A stretch of 64,000 bases of DNA. Origin: Gemella morbillorum. Lineage in GTDB: Bacteria > Bacillota > Bacilli > Staphylococcales > Gemellaceae. Positions 3,583 to 21,661 of the stretch are shown here, one piece after another. Under the pieces are notes generated by a model, which had not been told where the DNA came from, did no database searches, and worked only from the letters and a program-made list of their open reading frames with translations. Where the stretch lies: the NCBI RefSeq assembly GCF_900476045.1, contig NZ_LS483440.1, positions 1,364,001-1,428,000 of the forward strand, written 5' to 3'. Each line of letters begins with the position of its first letter. The stretch's first letter is position 1. The position numbers and the translations under genes were made by a program.

Positions 3583-3912
3583 TTATTTCACGTTATACTC
3601 ATAAATAAGATAAATTAAAAATAAAGCACCTACTAAAATAGTAACTCCAATCACTTGAGTTATTCTCTCATATTTTTTTAATTTTTCTGGATCTCTTTGT
3701 ATTTCTACAGCTTGTTCTTCTGTCATTCCAGCTAAAAGATTTATACTTTTTTTTACTATCGTAACATAAGCTGCATGTAATAAACTAATCAATATTATTA
3801 ACATACTGATTGTCACCCATAATTTACTATCCAACATAGATCCTATAACCATTGCCCCAATCCACAATATACTTTCTATTATATTAAGTATAATAAAATT
3901 TTTTCTACTCAT
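3583..3912 (-). CDS. Small membrane protein, paralogue of the neighbour
   Basis: This 109-residue protein has three hydrophobic stretches (about residues 8-27, 31-50 and 84-104). Its core KSINLLAGMTEEQ matches KSYNLLAGMTEEE of the adjacent gene, so the two are tandem paralogues. An AGAGGTG ribosome site precedes the ATG. The NLLAG..EE core between membrane helices recalls DUF3784-type proteins of unknown role. There is no signal for secretion beyond the first helix and no clear operon partner apart from the paralogue 220 bases downstream. Confidence 0.6.
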   Translation of the reverse strand: MSRKNFIILNIIESILWIGAMVIGSMLDSKLWVTISMLIILISLLHAAYVTIVKKSINLLAGMTEEQAVEIQRDPEKLKKYERITQVIGVTILVGALFLIYLIYEYNVK

Positions 3913-4319
3913 ATATTACACCTCTCATTTCATAATTTTTTTGTACATACTAGTAATCAAAAGTATTTATATGAGAATAAATTGAATAAGTAAGCAGTCT
4001 ACTAGTAAATCTAGTCCTATATACGTAAAACTCTTTTTACTGATATTCTCTATTTCCTCTTTATTAATTTCAAATACTTAGATTATTAAAAGATATTTTA
4101 TAACTAGTTTTAAATTATCTCACCACATTTATTAGTATTATAACACAGATAAAAACCATCATCAAGGTATATTAATAGGGCTTTTTGCCGGCTATGAAAC
4201 TCACCTGACTGCTTTAGATTAGATTGTAACACTACACAGATTGACTATTTTTTGGGTGATTCTTATTCATTTTTATCTTTCTTTGCTACACCTATACACT
4301 TTATAAATTATCTTAATAT
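3913..4319. other. Intergenic region, nothing recognised
   Basis: About 400 bases without a convincing gene. I see no terminator with a T run, no tRNA and no repeat shared with other parts of the window. It presumably holds the promoter of the minus-strand membrane protein gene near 3913-3990. Confidence 0.4.
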
Positions 4320-11861: not shown

Positions 11862-14800
11862 ATGAAAAATACAACATTATTAAAAGTTTTGTCTGCGACT
11901 GCAATATTCTCAGCAATTGCGGCAATCGAAGCATATGATCAAGATAACTTTACTTTTGCAGCAGAAACACCTGTTGTTGCAAGCAATTCGGCTGCAGCAA
12001 CTGCTCCAACAGTTACAACGCCGGCAACAACTACTACAAGCACTACTCCAGCTCATAACGCTGAAGAACCTGCTACTGTAGCACAAGATGTTAAAGCTTT
12101 AAAAGATGGAGAATATAATATTACTGCTGAAGCCTTAAAATTCTATGAAGAAGGTCGCCCTTCTATGGCTGCAGCTGCAATCGACATTGATAAAACAAAA
12201 TTAATTGTAAAAAATGGTCAATACTCTGTAAATGTTTCATTCAAATCTATCACATTTGGTGGACTTACTGGTTACTTAGGAAATTTAAAATACTATGACG
12301 GTGATAAAACTCATGAAAATCGTAAAGAAATTCAAGATAGCGAGTTTAAAGATTCAACTATAGTTGAGAATTATAGTGCCAGTGAAACTGACAATTTCGT
12401 AGATGTCTACAAAAAAGAATTTCCTGGTCGTACTGTTTATCCAAAAACAGTTAACTATAATGTAGATAAAAATAAAATCGATTCAAATAATAAACTAGAA
12501 ACATATACTGAAGTGTTTGTTCCTGTTATGGCTTCAATTAATCCAGCTTTCGGAACTCAAAAAATGACTTTAAAATTTGATTTATCATCTTTAGCTAGAA
12601 AAAAAGTAACAGCTAATAACTATGAAGCTGCAACTTACGAAAATCCTAACAAAGACGTTGAATACAAAGGAACTATTAAAAAAGACTTCCCTATCCACGT
12701 TCAAGGACATTTAAGAAATGCTAACAACAACGATGAAGAGTCATTATACGGTTCTGCATTAGATAGCTATGTTAAAGTTGAAAAAGTTGGAGATAAATAC
12801 AAATATACTCTAAGATTCAAAAAAGGTCTTGCTGATGTAGGTGGAGAATTCTATCCATTCGAATTACACAAAGTTGCATATCAAGGTAAAGATATTCCAT
12901 TAACTACTTTGGCATCAAACGGTAATACTTCAGTAAAAGAAGGATCAATCACTACCGATAAACTATTAGAAAAAATTCAATTAGATGGTACTGCTCCATA
13001 TCCTAACGGTGCTTTAATGTCACACTTTGTTACATTAAAACTATACTATGAAACAGCTACCGCCTATAAGGAAAGACCTGTAAAATTAGAAGATGTAGTT
13101 GCACCTGCTAAACCTAAACCAGTTAATCCTGCACCAACTACGCCAAAAGAAGAACCAAAACCAGCTACACCAACAGCTGCTGATCACAATGTTGATGCTG
13201 ATAAAGTTCCTAACACTTTCCCTACTACAGTTAAAGCTGAATTAAATGGTAGAACAACTGGTACTGCTTCAATCTATGAAAATGCATTTGTTAAAGATGT
13301 AAAAGTTGAAAAAGTTGGAGATAAATATCAATATACTATACAAGTTAAAGAAGGGAAATCTACTAACTTCTTATTACGTAATAAGCCATTCACAGTTTCT
13401 AAACTTACTTATAAAGGAACTGAAATTAACTTTACTGAAGTTGATGCTGCTACTAAGCTAAAAGAAGGGAAAATCTTAACTGATTCTCTTCTAGACAAAA
13501 TCCAAGTAGATGCTGTATTCAATGTTCAAACAAAAGGCGGTGCTAAACCTAGATTCGAAGACAGAACTGCTGAAAGTACAATAGCTTTAGACTTCCCTAA
13601 AGTTGAAAAACCTAAAGAAGTTACACCTGCTAAACCTTCAGTACCTGATCGTGAAGTAGTTGCTGATAAAGTTCCTACTACATTCCCAGCTACTGTTAAA
13701 GGAGAATTAAATGGTAGAACAACTGATTCAAGTTCAATCTACGAAGATGCGTTTGTTAAAGATGTAAAAGTTGAAAAAGTTGGAGATAAATATCAATACA
13801 CAATTCAAGTAAAAGAAGGAAAATCTTCTACTTACTTACTACGTAATAAACCATTTACAGTTTCTAAACTTACTTATAAAGGAACTGAAGTTAACTTTAC
13901 TGAAGTTGATGCTGCAACTAAACTTAAAGAAGGTAAAATCTTAACTGATTCTCTTCTTGATAAAATTCAAGTAGATACTGTAATCAGTGTTCAAACTAGA
14001 GGTGGAGCTAACCCTAGATTCGAAGAAAGAAATGCAGAAAACACTATTTCTTTAGACTTCCCTACTGCAGAAAAAGTAAAAGAAGAAGCTGCAAATAACT
14101 TAGTTCCAGCTATAATTAATAATGCCCATGAATCTAATAGAACTTCAATGGCAAATGATGCATTAGTACATGAAAAAACTCGTGTTGAAAAAGTAAATGA
14201 TACTTACAACTACTATCTAACATTTAAAGACTTAAATATCGGGTCTCTTGTAGGAACTGTAGATACTTTAACTGTTGATGGTACTGCAGCTGAAAGAACT
14301 GATCTTGGTGGTGAAAGCCATGAAAAAGTATTCCACTTCACAAGTCCTGAAAAATTAACTGAAAAAACTATTACATTCTCAGTATCAGTAGACGGCAAAC
14401 CATTAAGAGGTCATTCAAATGTTGCAGCAACACTTAAATTCAATTGGGGTAATGCTACTCCACTAACAGCTGATCAAGTAACATCATTACACAAAGATGA
14501 AACTACAAAAGCTCAAGCTGAAAAAGAAAGATTAGAAAAAGAAGCTGCTAAAGCCCAAGCTGAAAAAGAAAGATTAGAGAAAGAAGAAGCTGCTAGAGTT
14601 CAAGCTGAAAAAGAAAGACTTGAAAAAGAAAAAGCTCAAAAAGCTGAAGCTGATCGTCTTGAAAAAGAAAGATTAGAAAAAGAAGCTGCTGCTAAAGCTC
14701 AAGCTGAAAAAGAAAGACTTGAAAAAGAAAAAGCTCAAAAAGCTGAAGCTGATCGTCTTGAAAAAGAAAGATTAGAAAAAGAAGCTGCCGCTAAAGCCGA

Positions 14801-15923
14801 AAAAGAAAGACTTGAAAAAGAAAAAGCTCTAAAAGAAGCTGTTGAAAAAATCCAAGCTGAAAACAAAAAAATTGAAGAACAAGCTAAAAAAGATGCTGAA
14901 ACTACTAAAGAAACAGTAACTAAATTAGAAGCTGCTAAAGCTCAATTAGAAAAACTAGTTAAAGAAAAAGAAGAAGCAATTAGTAAAGCTACTTCTGAAT
15001 CTGAAAAAGAAAAATTAACTACAGAAAAAACTGCAGCTGAAAGAGAACTTACAGCTAAAGTAACTGAATTAAAAACTGAAACTGAAAAAGCAGTTAAACT
15101 TGAAAATAAAGTCAAAGAAATTGAAAAATTAGAAAAAGTTAAAAATGAAGCAGTAAAAGACATTGCTAATGATAAGTCTTTAAGTAAAGAAGAAGCTAAA
15201 CAATTAGAAGCAATTGTAAAAACTGCATCTCTAAAAGATACATTAGTAGCCAAAGTTGTAGAAAATGGTTCAACTGAAGAAATTAAAGTTTCATTCGATA
15301 ACACTGCTGTAAAAGCAACTAAATTCGTAGTAGAAAAAGCTAATGAAAAAACTGTTGCAAAAGTTGAAGAACTAGTTAAGAAAGCTGATGAAAATCTAAA
15401 CGTTGTTAAAACAATCGATCTTCGCTTCACTGATGATAATGGAGCTGTAATTAACAAACAAGGTGAAACTCGTACAGTTACTGTTGCTGTGGTAGCTAAT
15501 GAAGGTGAAAAACTAGAAGTTTACTACGTAAATGGAGACAAATTAGAAAAAGTTCCTAGTGTTTATAAAGATGGAAAACTTACATTCTTCACTAGCCACT
15601 TCAGTTTATATGCAATTGTAAAAACTGTTGCATCTAATCAAGATACTTCAGTACCTGTAAAACCTGATACTCCAGATAATAAAGTTACAAACAAAGAAAC
15701 AAAATCTGAAACTAAAGAACAAAACGTAAAAGAAGAAGCTGAAGCAACTCCACAAAATATCTTCGGTGAAGTAGAAAAAACTGTTTCTCAAAATACTTCT
15801 CAAACTGTAACTAAAGGACTTAAACAATTAGCTAAAACTGGACTAAATGCAACAGCAACTGCTGGATTAGGTGTATTAGCACTACTATCTGCTTTAGTAT
15901 TACGTAGAAAAAATAACAAATAA
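11862..15923 (+). CDS. Large multi-NEAT wall-anchored haem/haemoprotein-binding protein
   Basis: The 1353-residue protein starts with a signal peptide (to about residue 33), a Thr/Ala/Pro spacer (40-75), and a NEAT domain (about 80-243) with SM (RPSMAAAA) and VPVM segments. Three further NEAT-like domains follow at about 275-400, 450-580 and 607-737. The last two are close repeats, and all three have Tyr in place of the SM Met (ESLYGSA, SIYENAF). A fifth NEAT (746-865) has RTSMAND. Then come a Lys/Glu/Ala coiled coil (882-1092, repeated EKERLEKE), a beta-rich module (1120-1270), and a C-terminal anchor LAKTG, hydrophobic segment and RRKNNK. It probably captures haem or haemoglobin at the surface. 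GGAG precedes the ATG. LAKTG lacks the usual Pro of LPXTG. Confidence 0.85.
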   Translation: MKNTTLLKVLSATAIFSAIAAIEAYDQDNFTFAAETPVVASNSAAATAPTVTTPATTTTSTTPAHNAEEPATVAQDVKALKDGEYNITAEALKFYEEGRPSMAAAAIDIDKTKLIVKNGQYSVNVSFKSITFGGLTGYLGNLKYYDGDKTHENRKEIQDSEFKDSTIVENYSASETDNFVDVYKKEFPGRTVYPKTVNYNVDKNKIDSNNKLETYTEVFVPVMASINPAFGTQKMTLKFDLSSLARKKVTANNYEAATYENPNKDVEYKGTIKKDFPIHVQGHLRNANNNDEESLYGSALDSYVKVEKVGDKYKYTLRFKKGLADVGGEFYPFELHKVAYQGKDIPLTTLASNGNTSVKEGSITTDKLLEKIQLDGTAPYPNGALMSHFVTLKLYYETATAYKERPVKLEDVVAPAKPKPVNPAPTTPKEEPKPATPTAADHNVDADKVPNTFPTTVKAELNGRTTGTASIYENAFVKDVKVEKVGDKYQYTIQVKEGKSTNFLLRNKPFTVSKLTYKGTEINFTEVDAATKLKEGKILTDSLLDKIQVDAVFNVQTKGGAKPRFEDRTAESTIALDFPKVEKPKEVTPAKPSVPDREVVADKVPTTFPATVKGELNGRTTDSSSIYEDAFVKDVKVEKVGDKYQYTIQVKEGKSSTYLLRNKPFTVSKLTYKGTEVNFTEVDAATKLKEGKILTDSLLDKIQVDTVISVQTRGGANPRFEERNAENTISLDFPTAEKVKEEAANNLVPAIINNAHESNRTSMANDALVHEKTRVEKVNDTYNYYLTFKDLNIGSLVGTVDTLTVDGTAAERTDLGGESHEKVFHFTSPEKLTEKTITFSVSVDGKPLRGHSNVAATLKFNWGNATPLTADQVTSLHKDETTKAQAEKERLEKEAAKAQAEKERLEKEEAARVQAEKERLEKEKAQKAEADRLEKERLEKEAAAKAQAEKERLEKEKAQKAEADRLEKERLEKEAAAKAEKERLEKEKALKEAVEKIQAENKKIEEQAKKDAETTKETVTKLEAAKAQLEKLVKEKEEAISKATSESEKEKLTTEKTAAERELTAKVTELKTETEKAVKLENKVKEIEKLEKVKNEAVKDIANDKSLSKEEAKQLEAIVKTASLKDTLVAKVVENGSTEEIKVSFDNTAVKATKFVVEKANEKTVAKVEELVKKADENLNVVKTIDLRFTDDNGAVINKQGETRTVTVAVVANEGEKLEVYYVNGDKLEKVPSVYKDGKLTFFTSHFSLYAIVKTVASNQDTSVPVKPDTPDNKVTNKETKSETKEQNVKEEAEATPQNIFGEVEKTVSQNTSQTVTKGLKQLAKTGLNATATAGLGVLALLSALVLRRKNNK
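14505..14830 (+). repeat. Tandem coding repeats of the coiled-coil stalk
   Basis: Blocks of about 33-36 bases coding for KAQAEKERLEKE-type units recur, for example at 14505-14590 and 14640-14760, where an arrangement with ADRLEKERLEKEAA is duplicated almost exactly. Such repeats expand and contract by recombination and probably set the reach of the protein. They lie inside the gene and are not a CRISPR array. Confidence 0.8.
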
Positions 15924-15938
15924 TATAAAACAAACTCT

Positions 15939-15971
15939 TATACAAAGGGATAATTTATCCCTTTGTATAAA
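15939..15971. repeat. Perfect 13-bp inverted repeat between two NEAT genes
   Basis: Arms TTATACAAAGGGA (15939-15951) and TCCCTTTGTATAA (15959-15971) match exactly. No T run follows, so it is a weak terminator at best. It could be an mRNA processing or stability hairpin, or a partial attenuator separating the large gene from the next. Confidence 0.6.
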
Positions 15972-16009
15972 GTCATGTATAAAGAAATATAAGGAGAATT
16001 CAAGATAAG

Positions 16010-17419
16010 ATGAAAGCAAATAAATTATTAAAAGTTCTGTCCGCAGCAACTATCATCTCTACTTTTGCTGTGGTAGAAAACTTTATACAAGGCAATACTA
16101 CATTTGCTATAGAAAATAATGTTGTTGCATCAAAAGATGTAAAAAATCTTCCTGATGGAGAATATAATATCACTGCTGAGGCTCTTAAATTCTACGAAGA
16201 AGGTAAACCTTCTATGGCTGCTGCTGCAATCGACATTGATAAAACAAAATTAATCGTGAAAAATGGTCAATACTCTGTAAATGTTTCATTCAAATCTATC
16301 ACATTTGGTGGACTTACTGGTTACTTAGGAAATTTAAAATACTATAACGGTGATAAAACTCATAAAAATCGTAAAGAAATTCAAGATAGCGAGTTTAAAG
16401 ATTCAACTATAGTTGAGAATTATAGTGCCAGTGAAACTGACAATTTCGTAGATGTCTACAAAAAAGAATTCCCTGGTCGTACTGTTTATCCAAAAACAGT
16501 TAACTATAATGTAGATAAAAATAAAATCGATTCAAATAATAAACTAGAAACATATACTGAAGTGTTTGTTCCTGTTATGGCTTCTATTGATGAAAGATTT
16601 GGAACTCAAAGAATGATTCTAAAATTTGATTTAAGCAATGCATTAAATACGGTAACGAATAGTCAACCAACTCCAGCTAAGCCTGCAGAAACACCTAAAA
16701 ATACTCAACCTTCTGACAAACCTGCAGATCAAGGTACTAAACCTACAAATAGCGCTTCTACTACAACTAAACCTGTAGTAACTACTCCTGCTCCAAAAAC
16801 AACTCCTGCAGCTACTCAAGAACAAGGTGAAGAACGTACAGTTACTTTCTACGATAACGTAACTGCTTCACTACTAAATGCATATGAAGCAGGTCGTGCA
16901 TCTATGGGGAATGCAGCATTAGATGGTATTACAGTTTATAAAGATGGCGACACATATCACTACATCGTGCGTTTCCACGATATTAAAATTGGAACACTAA
17001 CTGACGGTATTAAACGCTTCTGGGTTAACGGAACTGAATATCCTGTTACCAGCACAGGTGGCGCTATGAATCAAGTTCAAACCCACTTCACATCAAATGA
17101 GAAATTAACTAATATTCCTGTATCAGTATTCGTACCAACAATGGAAAGCATTATGCCGGGTGCTGGTAAAAAAGATGCAATTCTTAGACTAAACTGGTCT
17201 AACGCCACAGAAAGACAAGGAAAAGCTTTTGTTACAGATGGTAACCCTGGACCAAGTGCCGCTGGTAATGGCGCTGGACCTTTAACTCCAAAAGGTGGAC
17301 GTCTAAACAATGGACGACTATCTAATACTGGATTAGAAACATCATCATCAATTCTTGCAGGAGCTCTTACTCTAATTAGTGCCTTCATTGTTTATAGAAG
17401 AAAACAAAATGAAAAATAG
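16010..17419 (+). CDS. Wall-anchored two-NEAT haem-binding protein
   Basis: The 469-residue protein has a signal peptide (about 1-32), a first NEAT domain (about 50-210) almost identical in DNA to NEAT1 of the preceding gene, a Pro/Thr-rich linker (212-280), and a second NEAT (282-405) with RASMGNAA and VPTMESIM. It ends with the anchor LSNTG, a hydrophobic stretch and the basic tail YRRKQNEK. Both domains hold the two-methionine pattern expected for haem coordination. AAGGAG precedes the ATG. The start residues match those of the large neighbour, so it is a truncated paralogue or a product of duplication. LSNTG is unusual for a sortase substrate. Confidence 0.85.
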   Translation: MKANKLLKVLSAATIISTFAVVENFIQGNTTFAIENNVVASKDVKNLPDGEYNITAEALKFYEEGKPSMAAAAIDIDKTKLIVKNGQYSVNVSFKSITFGGLTGYLGNLKYYNGDKTHKNRKEIQDSEFKDSTIVENYSASETDNFVDVYKKEFPGRTVYPKTVNYNVDKNKIDSNNKLETYTEVFVPVMASIDERFGTQRMILKFDLSNALNTVTNSQPTPAKPAETPKNTQPSDKPADQGTKPTNSASTTTKPVVTTPAPKTTPAATQEQGEERTVTFYDNVTASLLNAYEAGRASMGNAALDGITVYKDGDTYHYIVRFHDIKIGTLTDGIKRFWVNGTEYPVTSTGGAMNQVQTHFTSNEKLTNIPVSVFVPTMESIMPGAGKKDAILRLNWSNATERQGKAFVTDGNPGPSAAGNGAGPLTPKGGRLNNGRLSNTGLETSSSILAGALTLISAFIVYRRKQNEK

Positions 17420-17462
17420 TAAGATAATACCCCGCTAATAAGCATACTATTATCTACTCCAA

Positions 17463-17490
17463 AAGGCGGGAAAACTTCCCGTCTTTCTTA
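17463..17490 (+). terminator. Possible terminator after the two-NEAT gene
   Basis: Arms CGGGAA (17467-17472) and TTCCCG (17476-17481) with a short loop are followed by a T-rich tail. It would separate the wall-anchored genes from the membrane-anchored one, although readthrough is likely. Confidence 0.5.
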
Positions 17491-17529
17491 TTAAAAATTA
17501 AATAATACAAAAGAAAGTGAGTTTATACA

Positions 17530-18846
17530 ATGAAACGAATTTTAAAACTGTTAACGATAGTTATTGCTACATTAACGTTTATAGTTACATCTAGTAATGT
17601 TCCTTTCGTTAAAAATGTACATGCTGCTGACAGAGTATATAGCGTTCCTGTGGAACTATGGCACGCTGAAAATAGTGGTCGTCTTTCTATGGGGAACAAT
17701 GCACTAGCTACACATGCTACTGTAAACGTTCATGATAATAACACCTCTACTATTTCTGTTCAATTCACACCGATGGATTTTAGTAATATGCATGGTCACT
17801 TATTATCACTAAGTATTTATTCATCTCCACTTTTTTCTGGAAGCCTAACTGCTGCTTCAGTAACAAGTTCTTATAATGACACTAATTTAAATGGAGGGAC
17901 TAGTACATACCCAAGAACTCTTAGCTTTAACTTTGGAGAAGCTAAACCTGATAAAGTTGGTGTTAGAATTGCGGTTGATGCCATGAACCAAATTATGGGT
18001 GGTGATGCATCTCAAAATGCTATTATTAAATTTAACTGGTCAGCTGCTTCTTTAGTATCAGGTTCTGAGGATAATTCTAAAGATAAAGATAAAAAAGAAA
18101 ACGATAAGAAAAAAGAAGAAAAAAATAAAGACAAAAAAGATGAGAATAAGGCACCTGAAGGATTTGTTGCTAAAAAATTAGAAGACTATTTCAAAGCTGA
18201 TCAAAAAACAAAAAATCCTGGTCTTTATAACCTTGACATTACAGGTTCATATCTAAACCCTATTACTGGTGTTACTGCTGATGGTGGGACTAAAAACACT
18301 GCTATAGGTGAAGGTATGGTTCAAGGTGTCATCTCTCCTATTAATGCAGGTGGTGACTTAAACGAAGCTCTTAAAAATCAAAAATCTAATGGTGAAAAGC
18401 GTTGGTCTAAAGCTATGCTTCAACGTACAAAAGATGGAAAATTATACGCAACTGTACGTGTTCACCTAATGAATTGGGTTCAACGTAGTAAAGAACAAGG
18501 TCCTTTCATTAAAGTTCTTCAAAAAGATGGAGAATTCAAACAAGTTACTGCTACTGAAACTAAAGTTCATATTGAACAATATAAAGATAGCTATGTTGAT
18601 TATCGTTTTGAAGTGCCAAATGAAAACTTCTTAGCTATGGTACAAATGTATATAGAACCTATGAATCGACCAGTTCGATATTTCGTAGAAGTTAATACTG
18701 ATACTATTAAAAATGGAAATGATGGCTTAGATATGGAAGTTATTAAAGAAACAAACTACGTACCTTACTATGTTGGCGGAGGTATCGGAGTTCTTGTAAT
18801 AGCTGCCGGAGCTTTCTTTGCTCTTAAAAAAAGAAAAAATAATTAG
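17530..18846 (+). CDS. Membrane-anchored Shp-like haem-binding protein
   Basis: The 438-residue protein has a signal peptide (ending about VHAA, residue 34) and a NEAT/Shp haem domain (36-176). The latter contains RLSMGNNA, a GHLLSLSIYSS segment and AMNQIMGG, the two Met positions that bind haem axially in streptococcal Shp. A Lys/Asp/Glu-rich linker (185-212) follows, then a second beta-rich domain (215-400) of unknown role (HLMNWVQ, FEVPNENFLAMVQM). It ends in a membrane segment and KKRKNN with no sortase motif. It likely passes haem from the wall proteins to the lipoprotein immediately downstream (10-base gap). It is longer than Shp (about 290) because of the extra domain. Confidence 0.8.
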   Translation: MKRILKLLTIVIATLTFIVTSSNVPFVKNVHAADRVYSVPVELWHAENSGRLSMGNNALATHATVNVHDNNTSTISVQFTPMDFSNMHGHLLSLSIYSSPLFSGSLTAASVTSSYNDTNLNGGTSTYPRTLSFNFGEAKPDKVGVRIAVDAMNQIMGGDASQNAIIKFNWSAASLVSGSEDNSKDKDKKENDKKKEEKNKDKKDENKAPEGFVAKKLEDYFKADQKTKNPGLYNLDITGSYLNPITGVTADGGTKNTAIGEGMVQGVISPINAGGDLNEALKNQKSNGEKRWSKAMLQRTKDGKLYATVRVHLMNWVQRSKEQGPFIKVLQKDGEFKQVTATETKVHIEQYKDSYVDYRFEVPNENFLAMVQMYIEPMNRPVRYFVEVNTDTIKNGNDGLDMEVIKETNYVPYYVGGGIGVLVIAAGAFFALKKRKNN

Positions 18847-18856
18847 GAGATAATTC

Positions 18857-19816
18857 ATGAAAAGAAAACTATCCCTACTATTTACACTACTATTAGCCAG
18901 TATTCTAGTTCTTACTGCTTGTTCATCACAAAATAAAGCTGGTAACACTACTGGAACTGATCCTAATCTAGCTGATAAAGCTTTTAATGAAACGATAGAT
19001 TTAACAGGTGTAAATAAAGATAAAAAATCTGAAGAGGAAAATGGTAAACGTGTCATAATGGACTCTGTAGCTTTAGCTCAAGTCGCAAATGTGCTTGATA
19101 TTAAATTAGCAGGGGTGCCTACTACGAAATTAGGTCGTATGCCTAAAAGATATGACAACACTGTTCAAATCGGACTTCCTATGAATCCAAATATGGAAGT
19201 TATCAAGTCAATTAATCCTTCTATTGTATATGCTCCAGATAGTTTGCAAGACTGGATAAAAGAAGGATTCGAGAAAAATAAAATCCCTTATAAATTTGTA
19301 GATATTCGTAGTGTTAACGGATTATACGCTATTACAGAAGATCTTGCAAAAGAATTTGGTAAAGTTGAAAAATTCAATAAATTAAAAAAAGAACATGATG
19401 AATTTTTCACTAAGTTCAATGAAAAAATTGCAAATAAAAAGAAACCAAAAGTTTTAGTTCTTATGGGATTACCTGGAAGTTACATGGCTGCCACTGAAAA
19501 ATCTTATGTGGGTAACCTAGTAAAATTAGCTGGTGGTGAAAATATCATTAAAGGTAATGAAGAGTTTAAAAACCTAAACTTAGAAACAGCTTTAAACGAT
19601 AAACCAGACTTTATATTACGAACTGCTCATGCTATGCCTGAGACAGTAACTGAAATGTTTAAGAAAGAATTTGAAAACAATAAGAGTTGGTCACACTTTG
19701 ATGCGGTAAAAAATAATAAAGTTATCGACTTAGATAGCTCAATGTTTGGTATGACAGCTACATACGATTACCAAAAAGGATTAGAAAGTCTATACAGTAT
19801 TTTCTATAGTAACTAA
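18857..19816 (+). CDS. isdE: Haem ABC transporter substrate-binding lipoprotein (IsdE/HtsA-like)
   Basis: The 319-residue lipoprotein has lipobox LTAC (Cys22) and a class III periplasmic-binding fold (GRMPKRYD, INPSIVYAPD, the VLVLMGLPGSY segment). Met in IGLPMNP and His in LRTAHAMPE stand where IsdE and HtsA place their Met/His haem ligands. It would receive haem from the surface NEAT proteins and deliver it to the permease. GGAG precedes the ATG. A strong terminator follows, and the permease and ATPase genes start beyond it. Confidence 0.85.
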   Translation: MKRKLSLLFTLLLASILVLTACSSQNKAGNTTGTDPNLADKAFNETIDLTGVNKDKKSEEENGKRVIMDSVALAQVANVLDIKLAGVPTTKLGRMPKRYDNTVQIGLPMNPNMEVIKSINPSIVYAPDSLQDWIKEGFEKNKIPYKFVDIRSVNGLYAITEDLAKEFGKVEKFNKLKKEHDEFFTKFNEKIANKKKPKVLVLMGLPGSYMAATEKSYVGNLVKLAGGENIIKGNEEFKNLNLETALNDKPDFILRTAHAMPETVTEMFKKEFENNKSWSHFDAVKNNKVIDLDSSMFGMTATYDYQKGLESLYSIFYSN

Positions 19817-19858: not shown

Positions 19859-19922
19859 ACATAATTTAAATTATAAACTACATATGTTATACTAAACATA
19901 TAACTATATAAGGAGGTTCTTG

Positions 19923-20897
19923 ATGTTTAACAACAAAAAAACAATCACTTTTTCTGTTCTTATTCTACTTTTATTAAGTACAGTATTTTTTGCAGCGAAT
20001 AGTGGTAGTATAAAAGCTAGCGTTGGACAATTAGCTGTTGGTATCTTTACTGGAGAATACGCCAATGTTAATGCAATTATCGACGTTCGTTTCCCAAGAA
20101 TTATTATAACTATATTAGTCGGTGCTGCTCTTGGTGTAAGTGGTTTATTACTACAAACTGTATTGAAGAACCCACTTGTTGATCCGAGTATTATAGGCGT
20201 TTCTAGTGGAGCTAGCCTATTTTTATACTTAGGATTAGGATTATTCCCTCAATTTTTGCTGTTTAAATCAGTGTTTTCTATCATCGGTGGTGTCATTGGT
20301 TTCTTAATTATTTATTACTTAGCTGGTAGAACAAAAAACAATGTTAAAATAATTTTAATAGGTATTGCTATTAGCTATTTCTTCACAGGAATATTAAATT
20401 CTATGCAATACATGAACCAAACGAACTCTACTACTTCATCAGCATTTAAAACTGTCGGTTTAGGAACTAAAAACTGGGATGATGTTTCATTATTATTAAG
20501 TTGGATTCCTATTTTACTAATTATCAGTTTCTTCTTAGCAAAACTATGTAATATCTTCGCTTTAGATGATAATATTATTAGTTCACTAGGAATCAATATT
20601 AATATGATTCGCCTGCTAATCTCATTTATTGCGGTAGCTCTTGCTTCTGTATCTACAGCTGTTGCTGGTGTTATGGTCTTTTTAGCTCTTATTACACCTC
20701 ATATTGCTAAAATTATAATTGGTAGAAATCATATCTATACTATTCCATTTAGTGCTTTACTTGGAGCGTTTATTCTACTATTATTTGATACAATCGGTCG
20801 TGTTATTTTCGCGCCAATCGAAATACCTGCTGATTTAATAATGATGATTATCGGTGGACCTGCATTTATTATTTTAGTTAAGAAAGGAGTAAGTTAA
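19923..20897 (+). CDS. isdF: Haem/iron ABC transporter permease (FecCD family)
   Basis: The 324-residue protein has nine to ten hydrophobic segments and FecCD patterns such as RFPRIIITILVGAALGVSG, NPLVDPSIIGVSSGA and GVMVFLALITPHIAK. AGGAGG lies six bases before the ATG at 19923, so the upstream in-frame TTG (19920) is not used. It would dimerise in the membrane and import haem delivered by the lipoprotein. It overlaps the ATPase start by one base. Confidence 0.88.
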   Translation: MFNNKKTITFSVLILLLLSTVFFAANSGSIKASVGQLAVGIFTGEYANVNAIIDVRFPRIIITILVGAALGVSGLLLQTVLKNPLVDPSIIGVSSGASLFLYLGLGLFPQFLLFKSVFSIIGGVIGFLIIYYLAGRTKNNVKIILIGIAISYFFTGILNSMQYMNQTNSTTSSAFKTVGLGTKNWDDVSLLLSWIPILLIISFFLAKLCNIFALDDNIISSLGININMIRLLISFIAVALASVSTAVAGVMVFLALITPHIAKIIIGRNHIYTIPFSALLGAFILLLFDTIGRVIFAPIEIPADLIMMIIGGPAFIILVKKGVS

Positions 20898-21661
20898 TGG
20901 AAAACATAATAGAAATTAATAACCTTACATTTAAGTATAATAATAAAAATACTCTTTTCGAAAAACTCAATGTAGATATTGAAAAAGGTAAAATTACTAC
21001 CCTACTTGGTAAAAATGGATGTGGTAAGAGTACACTTATAAAAATATTAGCAAAAAATTTAAACTATAATTCTGGAAGCGTGAAAATCGAAGGTAAAGAA
21101 TTAAATTCATATTCATTAAAAGAACTTGCGAGTATTCTTGCGATTGTTTATCAAAAGAATGAAACTCCAAGAGAAATTACTGTTTATGATATGGTTAGTT
21201 TCGCTCGTCTTCCTTATCAAAATATTTTCTTTTATAAACCTAACGCTAGTGATGTTGAAAAAATTGAATTTGCTCTTGAAAAAACTAATTTAAAAACCTA
21301 TAGAGATAAACGTGTAGATGAATTGTCTGGTGGTCAACTTCAACGTGTTTACATCGCAATGGCGTTAGCACAAAGCACTGATATTATTATATTAGACGAA
21401 CCTACGACCTTCCTTGATATAAAATATCAAAAATCTATAATGCAACTTGTTAGAGATCTTAATAAATCTTTAGGAATTACTATTATCATGGTACTACATG
21501 ATATAAATCAAGCATTGGCATACAGTGATAATATTATTGCTCTTCTTGATGGAAAAGTTATAAAGAATGATAAAGCTGAGAACTTCTTTGATGAAGAGCT
21601 TCTAAACAAACTTTATGATGCTGATATCAAAATAGAAGATGGAAAAGTAATTAGTTGGTAA
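20897..21661 (+). CDS. Haem ABC transporter ATP-binding protein
   Basis: The 254-residue protein has a Walker A motif GKNGCGKST, ABC signature LSGGQLQ and Walker B IIILDEPTT followed by FLDI. The ATG overlaps the stop of the permease (TAATG), implying translational coupling. It powers haem import in the FecCD system. It is the last gene of the haem locus and is followed by a hairpin terminator and mobile-element debris. Confidence 0.9.
   Translation: MENIIEINNLTFKYNNKNTLFEKLNVDIEKGKITTLLGKNGCGKSTLIKILAKNLNYNSGSVKIEGKELNSYSLKELASILAIVYQKNETPREITVYDMVSFARLPYQNIFFYKPNASDVEKIEFALEKTNLKTYRDKRVDELSGGQLQRVYIAMALAQSTDIIILDEPTTFLDIKYQKSIMQLVRDLNKSLGITIIMVLHDINQALAYSDNIIALLDGKVIKNDKAENFFDEELLNKLYDADIKIEDGKVISW

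Follow-up and report, generated by a model that had tools for sequence, protein, structure and literature searches.

Which of the NEAT domains at a haem-uptake locus of Gemella morbillorum hold haem, and what do the others hold? The question is raised by p1, a large secreted protein with five NEAT domains, and by its neighbours p2 and p3, all encoded in a 64,000-nucleotide stretch of DNA (positions 1,364,001 to 1,428,000 of NZ_LS483440.1; the whole stretch is referred to as the window) that is part of a 1.76 Mb Gemella genome. A first-pass annotation had divided these domains into a class with two methionines and a class with a tyrosine, the latter comprising NEAT2, NEAT3 and NEAT4 of p1 (NEAT2-4). 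We found that the Met-type NEATs align with the crystallographic haem ligands of streptococcal Shr, and a Shp domain with those of Shp. The Tyr class is a distinct NEAT subfamily, with a predicted NEAT fold and a Ser-x-Tyr lip. The three proteins and their domains lie on the same strand:

11862..15923, + strand: p1, an open reading frame (ORF) of 1353 amino acids (aa), secreted, with LAKTG (LPXTG-like), five NEAT domains and a charged coil
12090..12596, + strand: p1 NEAT1, two-Met class (S101-M102; M223 in VPVM)
12666..13076, + strand: p1 NEAT2, Tyr class (S294-L-Y296; M386 and conserved H388 in strand 8)
13194..13601, + strand: p1 NEAT3, Tyr class (S470-I-Y472; strands 7-8 without a conserved ligand)
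13659..14069, + strand: p1 NEAT4, Tyr class (S625-I-Y627)
14085..14477, + strand: p1 NEAT5, SM only (S762-M763; D844 at the second-Met column; H851)
16010..17419, + strand: p2, a 469-aa surface protein with two two-Met NEATs (M69/M190 and M299/M378)
17530-18846, + strand: p3, 438 aa, an N-terminal NEAT followed by a Shp domain
17638..18054, + strand: p3 N-terminal NEAT, two-Met class (M54; M152 of AMNQIM)
18217..18729, + strand: p3 Shp haem-binding domain (M263 in GEGMVQG, M378 in EPMNRP; Pfam HemeBinding_Shp)

We compared the two-Met domains with Shr of Streptococcus pyogenes, in which the axial haem ligands are Met390/Met475 (NEAT1) and Met997/Met1107 (NEAT2) (PMC12796733). An SM motif and a second Met were present in p1 NEAT1 (M102/M223), p2 NEAT1 (M69/M190), p2 NEAT2 (M299/M378) and the N-terminal NEAT of p3 (M54/M152). 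As a single sequence, p2 NEAT1 matched Shr NEAT2 (PDB 9w5y) at E 2.7e-7; SM pairs with SM in this alignment, and VPVM with VPIM. The p1 NEAT1 profile matched 9w5y at E 3.8e-13 with both Mets in register, and the profile of the p2-NEAT2 type also aligned to this chain at both Mets; the two-Met segments of Gemella fall on SM and VFVPIM of Shr NEAT2. For the p3 N-terminal NEAT, which a Met-type profile recovered in a genome search at 6e-11, SM lies at 53-54 and the second-Met column is M152, the first M of AMNQIM. Because the matching positions are homologous columns, chance is not the explanation. The correspondence with the axial pair of Shr NEAT2 and Shp that had been proposed is thus borne out by the alignments to 9w5y and to the Shp structure 2q7a. 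In Pfam, NEAT1 of p1 searched alone scored 29.7 bits (1e-6), below the curated cut-off of 32.8, and the whole of p1 gave no NEAT match at E up to 1. The S/YxxxY motif by which Isd NEATs bind haem was absent from the strand-8 regions of p1 NEAT1-5 and p2 NEAT1/2.

According to a 2025 paper, the two-Met NEAT typifies S. pyogenes and is not a feature of other Gram-positives (PMC12796733). We detected two matches of the two-Met type (SM ... VDMM) in an S-layer-like protein from a distant genome of the same phylum, and a study of Clostridium perfringens reports that the Met pair of Shp is kept in ChtE (PMC5026354). By sequence, NEATs of this type extend beyond streptococci.

NEAT1 of p1 (12090-12596) and NEAT1 of p2 (16139-16639) are 93% identical and therefore not independent, so that the four two-Met cases represent three lineages. 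In genome G004, the domain of the p2 NEAT1 type is only ~72% identical to p1 NEAT1 of the window. This suggests that the neighbouring genes p1 and p2 underwent gene conversion or duplication recently in the lineage of the window. Elsewhere in the genome that contains the window, a second NEAT protein (L052:4356-8042, 1229 aa) has an N-terminal SM ... VFVPVM NEAT, another SM NEAT near residue 850 and a C-terminal module similar to the one in p1. In genome G005, an upstream gene of the NEAT1 type carries an in-frame stop within its NEAT domain (L049:3506-4030, minus strand).

The N-terminal domain of p3 had been labelled Shp-like. Its two-Met motif was confirmed; the label was not, since this is an ordinary Met-type NEAT and the Shp domain lies downstream of it, at residues ~230-400 (18217-18729). 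There, Pfam HemeBinding_Shp matched at 1.2e-24 and PDB 2q7a aligned with GEGMVQG (M263) over GQGMVEG and EPMNRP (M378) over EPMGRE. The aligned Met positions of 2q7a are 87 residues apart, as expected for Met66 and Met153 of Shp, and with M263/M378 as their equivalents the domain belongs to the Shp family (PF11545). Like Shp, p3 has both ligand Mets in its C-terminal domain and a C-terminal membrane segment; it differs in the extra two-Met NEAT ahead of the Shp domain. On these alignments, p3 has two haem-type domains in series.

NEAT5 of p1 had been noted to keep SM and to lack the second Met, and the seven Gemella orthologues agree: SM is kept in 7/7, and the second-Met column holds D, N or G in 7/7 (Asp844 in the window). 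A His of the strand 7-8 region (H851) is also conserved in 7/7. Pfam NEAT gave no match on NEAT5 alone. Shr NEAT2 mutants lacking either single Met still hold haem (PMC12796733); by analogy, NEAT5 may still bind it.

NEAT2-4 had been described as carrying Tyr where SM would be. The SM motif is indeed gone and a lip Tyr is present, but this Tyr stands one residue past the Met column. The lip aligns without gaps, S-I-Y-E-D-A-F of the Tyr class over S-M-A-N-D-A-L of the Met type: the Ser is retained, Met is replaced by Ile or Leu (Thr in staphylococci), and Tyr falls at the Ala/Gly of Met-type domains. The motif is therefore SxY and not a Tyr-for-Met swap. Ser27 and Tyr29 were invariant in 15 domains from two genera, with I, L or T between them. 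The (F/Y)YH(Y/F) motif found at the lip of Isd haemoglobin-binding NEATs (PMC7815599) was absent from NEAT2-4, which have S[ILT]Y instead.

The three Tyr-class domains form one clade with a common lip, yet they are not uniform in strand 8. NEAT3 and NEAT4 are 84% identical, and their strands 7-8 contain no conserved Met, His, Cys or Tyr in either genus. By sequence comparison, they have lost every evident iron ligand, and the Tyr class as a whole has lost most or all of the residues that grip the iron. Strand 8 of NEAT2 reads ALMSHFV; H388 is conserved in staphylococci as well, and M386 is Gln there. Because of these two residues, we treated NEAT2 separately from NEAT3/4 in predicting haem binding. 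NEAT2 may be functionally distinct from them and may bind haem via His388/Met386. It also has two very conserved non-canonical segments in both genera, RNAxNNxE before the lip and DVGGEFY after strand 3.

We asked whether NEAT2-4 are NEAT domains at all. Pfam NEAT gave no match to NEAT2 or NEAT4 searched alone, and a search of PDB sequences with a Tyr-class profile returned no NEAT match. We predicted structures and compared them with known NEATs. The AlphaFold2 model of NEAT4 (predicted local distance difference test score (pLDDT) 80.4) comprises eight strands plus a short helix (residues 30-32), with the SxY segment running directly into this lip helix. It matched IsdC with a Foldseek E of 1.5e-6 and a VIA Z of 11.2; all 44 NEAT or Shp entries among the matches listed lay at Z 7.0-11.2, and the best non-NEAT entry at 5.9. 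The NEAT2 model is of low confidence (pLDDT 64) and matched NEAT and Shp structures at VIA Z 7.0-9.6 versus 6.7 for the best non-NEAT. Profile comparison (hhalign) related the Tyr class to NEAT5 (E 4.6e-9) and to NEAT2 of p2 (E 2.5e-9, probability 96), and genome searches in both directions found the link between the Tyr and Met classes independently. We detected no direct profile similarity between the Tyr class and staphylococcal haem NEATs, haemoglobin NEATs or NEAT1; the likeness therefore runs only through domains of the NEAT5 and p2-NEAT2 types. NEAT2-4 thus come out as predicted NEAT folds (PF05031) by structure while remaining below the curated sequence cut-off of Pfam. The alternative that they are not NEAT domains, which the blindness of Pfam had suggested, is ruled out by the predicted fold and the profile evidence.

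In the phylogenetic tree the Tyr class was monophyletic (100/100) and nested within the Met-type NEATs of Gemella, with NEAT5 as its sister (93/92). Forcing it together with staphylococcal haem NEATs was rejected (approximately unbiased (AU) test, p 0.0167). Branches in the tree are long, and the AU rejections are therefore only moderate evidence. The plain reading would be that the Tyr class arose once from Met-type NEATs by stepwise loss, from both Mets to SM only (as in NEAT5) to neither, with the Tyr gained. The ratio of nonsynonymous to synonymous substitution rates (dN/dS), computed against four close genomes, was 0.02-0.19 for NEAT2-4, 0.20-0.28 for NEAT1 and 0.22-0.72 for NEAT5. NEAT2-4 have the lowest values: no other domains of p1 are as constrained, and the purifying selection acting on them is strong. 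The separate Tyr class of the first-pass annotation is accordingly monophyletic and strongly constrained as well as having a predicted NEAT fold.

We next examined how widely these domains are distributed. Four further Gemella genomes encode full-length relatives of p1, and in 2 more the relatives are shorter or split. Domains of the NEAT2-4 type occurred in 7 of 9 Gemella genomes, in none of 6 sister-genus genomes and in two further genomes of the order. Beyond Gemella and these two, both staphylococcal, the sampled phylum and class searches, which did not extend to phyla such as that of Peptoniphilus, found no Tyr-class domain. Gemella genome G001 encodes the Tyr block with NEAT5 as a separate protein of 664 aa that has no NEAT1 (L046:4532-6523); the block can therefore exist apart from a two-Met NEAT. 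In genome G007, the NEAT2-type region is spread over two frames (ORFs of 178 and 489 aa; L051 ~3790-4190 in + numbering of a minus-strand gene; C5:352801-353209), owing to either a frameshift or an assembly error.

The two genomes are recognized as staphylococcal by their proteins, which have YSIRK signals, an IsdC-type neighbour, haem NEATs with YxxxY and, in one of them, a unit like N1-linker-N2 of IsdH/B. Their Tyr-class domains, two or three per protein and not reported by Pfam, sit in IsdL/IsdM-type proteins (L104:8969-12793 and L105:10245-12434), N-terminal to the YxxxY haem-binding NEAT. The block is 44-49% identical to p1 NEAT2-4 (~48% for the NEAT2 relatives), and the order is common to both genera: NEAT2 type, NEAT3 type, haem-type NEAT. 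The likeness to the IsdL/IsdM-type proteins described for S. capitis/S. caprae lies in this block; the difference is that their haem NEATs use YxxxY and not two Mets, and that one has an N1-linker-N2 unit like that of IsdH/B. The staphylococcal N1 lip, FYIEA, agrees with the substitutions H166I and Y167E reported for NEAT1 of IsdL in the S. capitis/S. caprae pair (PMC7303328); by inference, the two genomes appear to belong to this pair. That paper counts three NEATs in IsdL, and its available text gives no description of Tyr-class domains between them. A single clade of staphylococcal Tyr domains was rejected (AU p 2.8e-7), and NEAT2-type domains group across genera, so the subtypes are older than the split of the genera or the transfer between them. 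The grouping of the staphylococcal NEAT2 type with one Gemella lineage suggests transfer.

The genes that follow p3 provide the functional context. Together with p1-p3 they make this locus a surface haem-uptake system:

18857..19816, + strand: IsdE-like haem-binding lipoprotein (NCBIfam IsdE TIGR03659 equivalog, 322.9 bits, above cut-off)
19920..20897, + strand: FecCD-family permease of the haem ATP-binding cassette (ABC) transporter (Pfam FecCD, 5.4e-75)
20897..21661, + strand: ABC ATPase of the haem transporter (Pfam ABC_tran, 2.5e-33)

The sorting signals of p1 (15828-15920, LAKTG) and p2 (17324-17416, LSNTG) both score under the curated LPXTG cut-off. No Fur-box-like site was found in the window at ≤3 mismatches to the single 19-base consensus tried. 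A 2020 survey lists Gemella NEAT proteins, in its available text without haem-ligand analysis (PMC7136413).

By comparison with the Shr-Shp-HtsA and Isd systems, we propose that haem would pass from p1 NEAT1, p2 and p3 to the importer, with the bis-methionyl NEATs (p1 NEAT1, both of p2, the N-terminal one of p3) and the membrane-end Shp domain of p3 handing it to the IsdE-type ABC importer. What NEAT2-4 hold is probably not free haem and may be haemoglobin; NEAT2 may differ through His388/Met386. The Tyr-class block would be a module on which a protein docks, with haemoglobin or another haemoprotein as the likeliest candidate, and would offer the docked haem source to neighbouring haem-binding NEATs: NEAT1/NEAT5 in p1, the YxxxY NEAT in the staphylococcal IsdL/IsdM-type proteins. 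We favour docking because NEAT2-4 are constrained, NEAT3/4 have no iron ligands, and haem-type NEATs are adjacent in two genera; these neighbours differ in chemistry, being two-Met in Gemella and YxxxY in staphylococci. To the whole picture, a bis-Met/Shp relay to the importer plus a single-origin SxY block as docking module, we assign a probability of about 0.5.

Several observations weigh against docking of a haemoprotein. NEAT2-4 have neither the Isd haemoglobin-binding motif nor profile similarity to the Isd haemoglobin-binding NEATs, and a joint clade with these domains (IsdH N1/N2) was rejected (AU p 0.0145). Pfam reports no helical IsdB/H linker between NEAT4 and NEAT5 of p1. With neither motif nor linker, the mechanism of extraction would differ from that of IsdB/IsdH. 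The models of NEAT2-4 are slightly nearer to haem-binding than to haemoglobin-binding NEATs (NEAT4, Z 11.2 versus 8.0). NEATs without YxxxY are also known to bind haem (PMC5026354), so that the lack of a recognized ligand is no proof of non-binding.

A more far-reaching version of the docking proposal, which we regard as tentative and put clearly below even odds, is that the SxY subfamily, after its one origin via loss of both Mets, became a haemoprotein receptor independent of the Isd NEATs, and that the block moved between Gemella and staphylococci, giving Isd proteins of the S. capitis/S. caprae type the haemoglobin receptor that a published survey had looked for in vain. It is doubtful, though conceivable, that haem binding persists in NEAT2-4 through other ligands, namely His388/Met386 in NEAT2 and the lip Tyr and Ser in NEAT3/4. 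The lip Ser is invariant in the Tyr class, and in Shr NEAT1 a Ser hydrogen-bonds a haem propionate (PMC12796733); the strand-8 His of NEAT2 is kept in two genera; and both the binding of haem without YxxxY and the proximity of the predicted folds to haem-binding NEATs would fit. However, the two Mets that the ancestor-like domains carry are gone, and strands 7-8 of NEAT3/4 offer no conserved Met, His, Cys or Tyr in either genus. We consider it unlikely that the ligand of NEAT2-4 is a non-haem molecule of host or bacterial origin, bound in an adhesin role, haem binding having been lost as unneeded: the high conservation of RNAxNNxE and DVGGEFY across two genera and the absence of the haemoglobin motif agree with this, but the Tyr class adjoins haem-uptake genes in Gemella and sits within Isd-type proteins in staphylococci. 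Least probable, by some distance from an even chance, is that NEAT2-4 are structural spacers or stabilizers projecting NEAT1 and NEAT5 from the wall, as their near-identical tandem repeats and the structural role proposed for some motif-less NEATs (PMC4143258) could imply, because neither an invariant lip motif nor purifying selection stronger than that on the haem NEATs is expected of plain spacers.

We compared the locus with known systems. Shr (9w5y) shares the lip SM and the strand-7 Met with p1 NEAT1, p2 NEAT1/2 and the p3 N-terminal NEAT; p1 NEAT2-4 differ in lacking both Mets and NEAT5 in lacking the second, and Pfam found no haemoglobin-interacting (HID) domain in the three window proteins. 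Like NEAT1 and NEAT2 of IsdH and NEAT1 of IsdB, the Tyr class has the predicted NEAT fold without YxxxY and stands N-terminal to a haem NEAT, but it has no (F/Y)YH(Y/F), no profile match to them and no place in a joint clade. ChtD and ChtE of C. perfringens resemble the locus in their non-YxxxY NEATs and in the Shp Met pair of ChtE; the comparison is by description and not by sequence, and the available text does not describe a Tyr-class domain there (PMC5026354).

The division noticed in the first-pass annotation is real, with the corrections above, and its haemoprotein interpretation is a plausible hypothesis. New here are the corrected lip register, the correct Shp domain, the setting apart of NEAT2 and a cryptic domain family that p1 shares with staphylococcal Isd proteins. 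NEATs have been sorted by two motifs, YxxxY for haem and (F/Y)YH(Y/F) for haemoglobin. There is also a third type, with two Mets, which this locus places in Gemella. The Tyr class would be a fourth type, invisible to Pfam and derived from the two-Met type. A survey of S. caprae reports no haemoglobin-binding NEAT there (PMC7303328), an absence that becomes testable because Tyr-class domains sit in IsdL/IsdM-type proteins of two staphylococci that appear to be S. capitis/S. caprae. If the Tyr class does bind a haemoprotein, haemoglobin recognition would have evolved twice on the NEAT fold.

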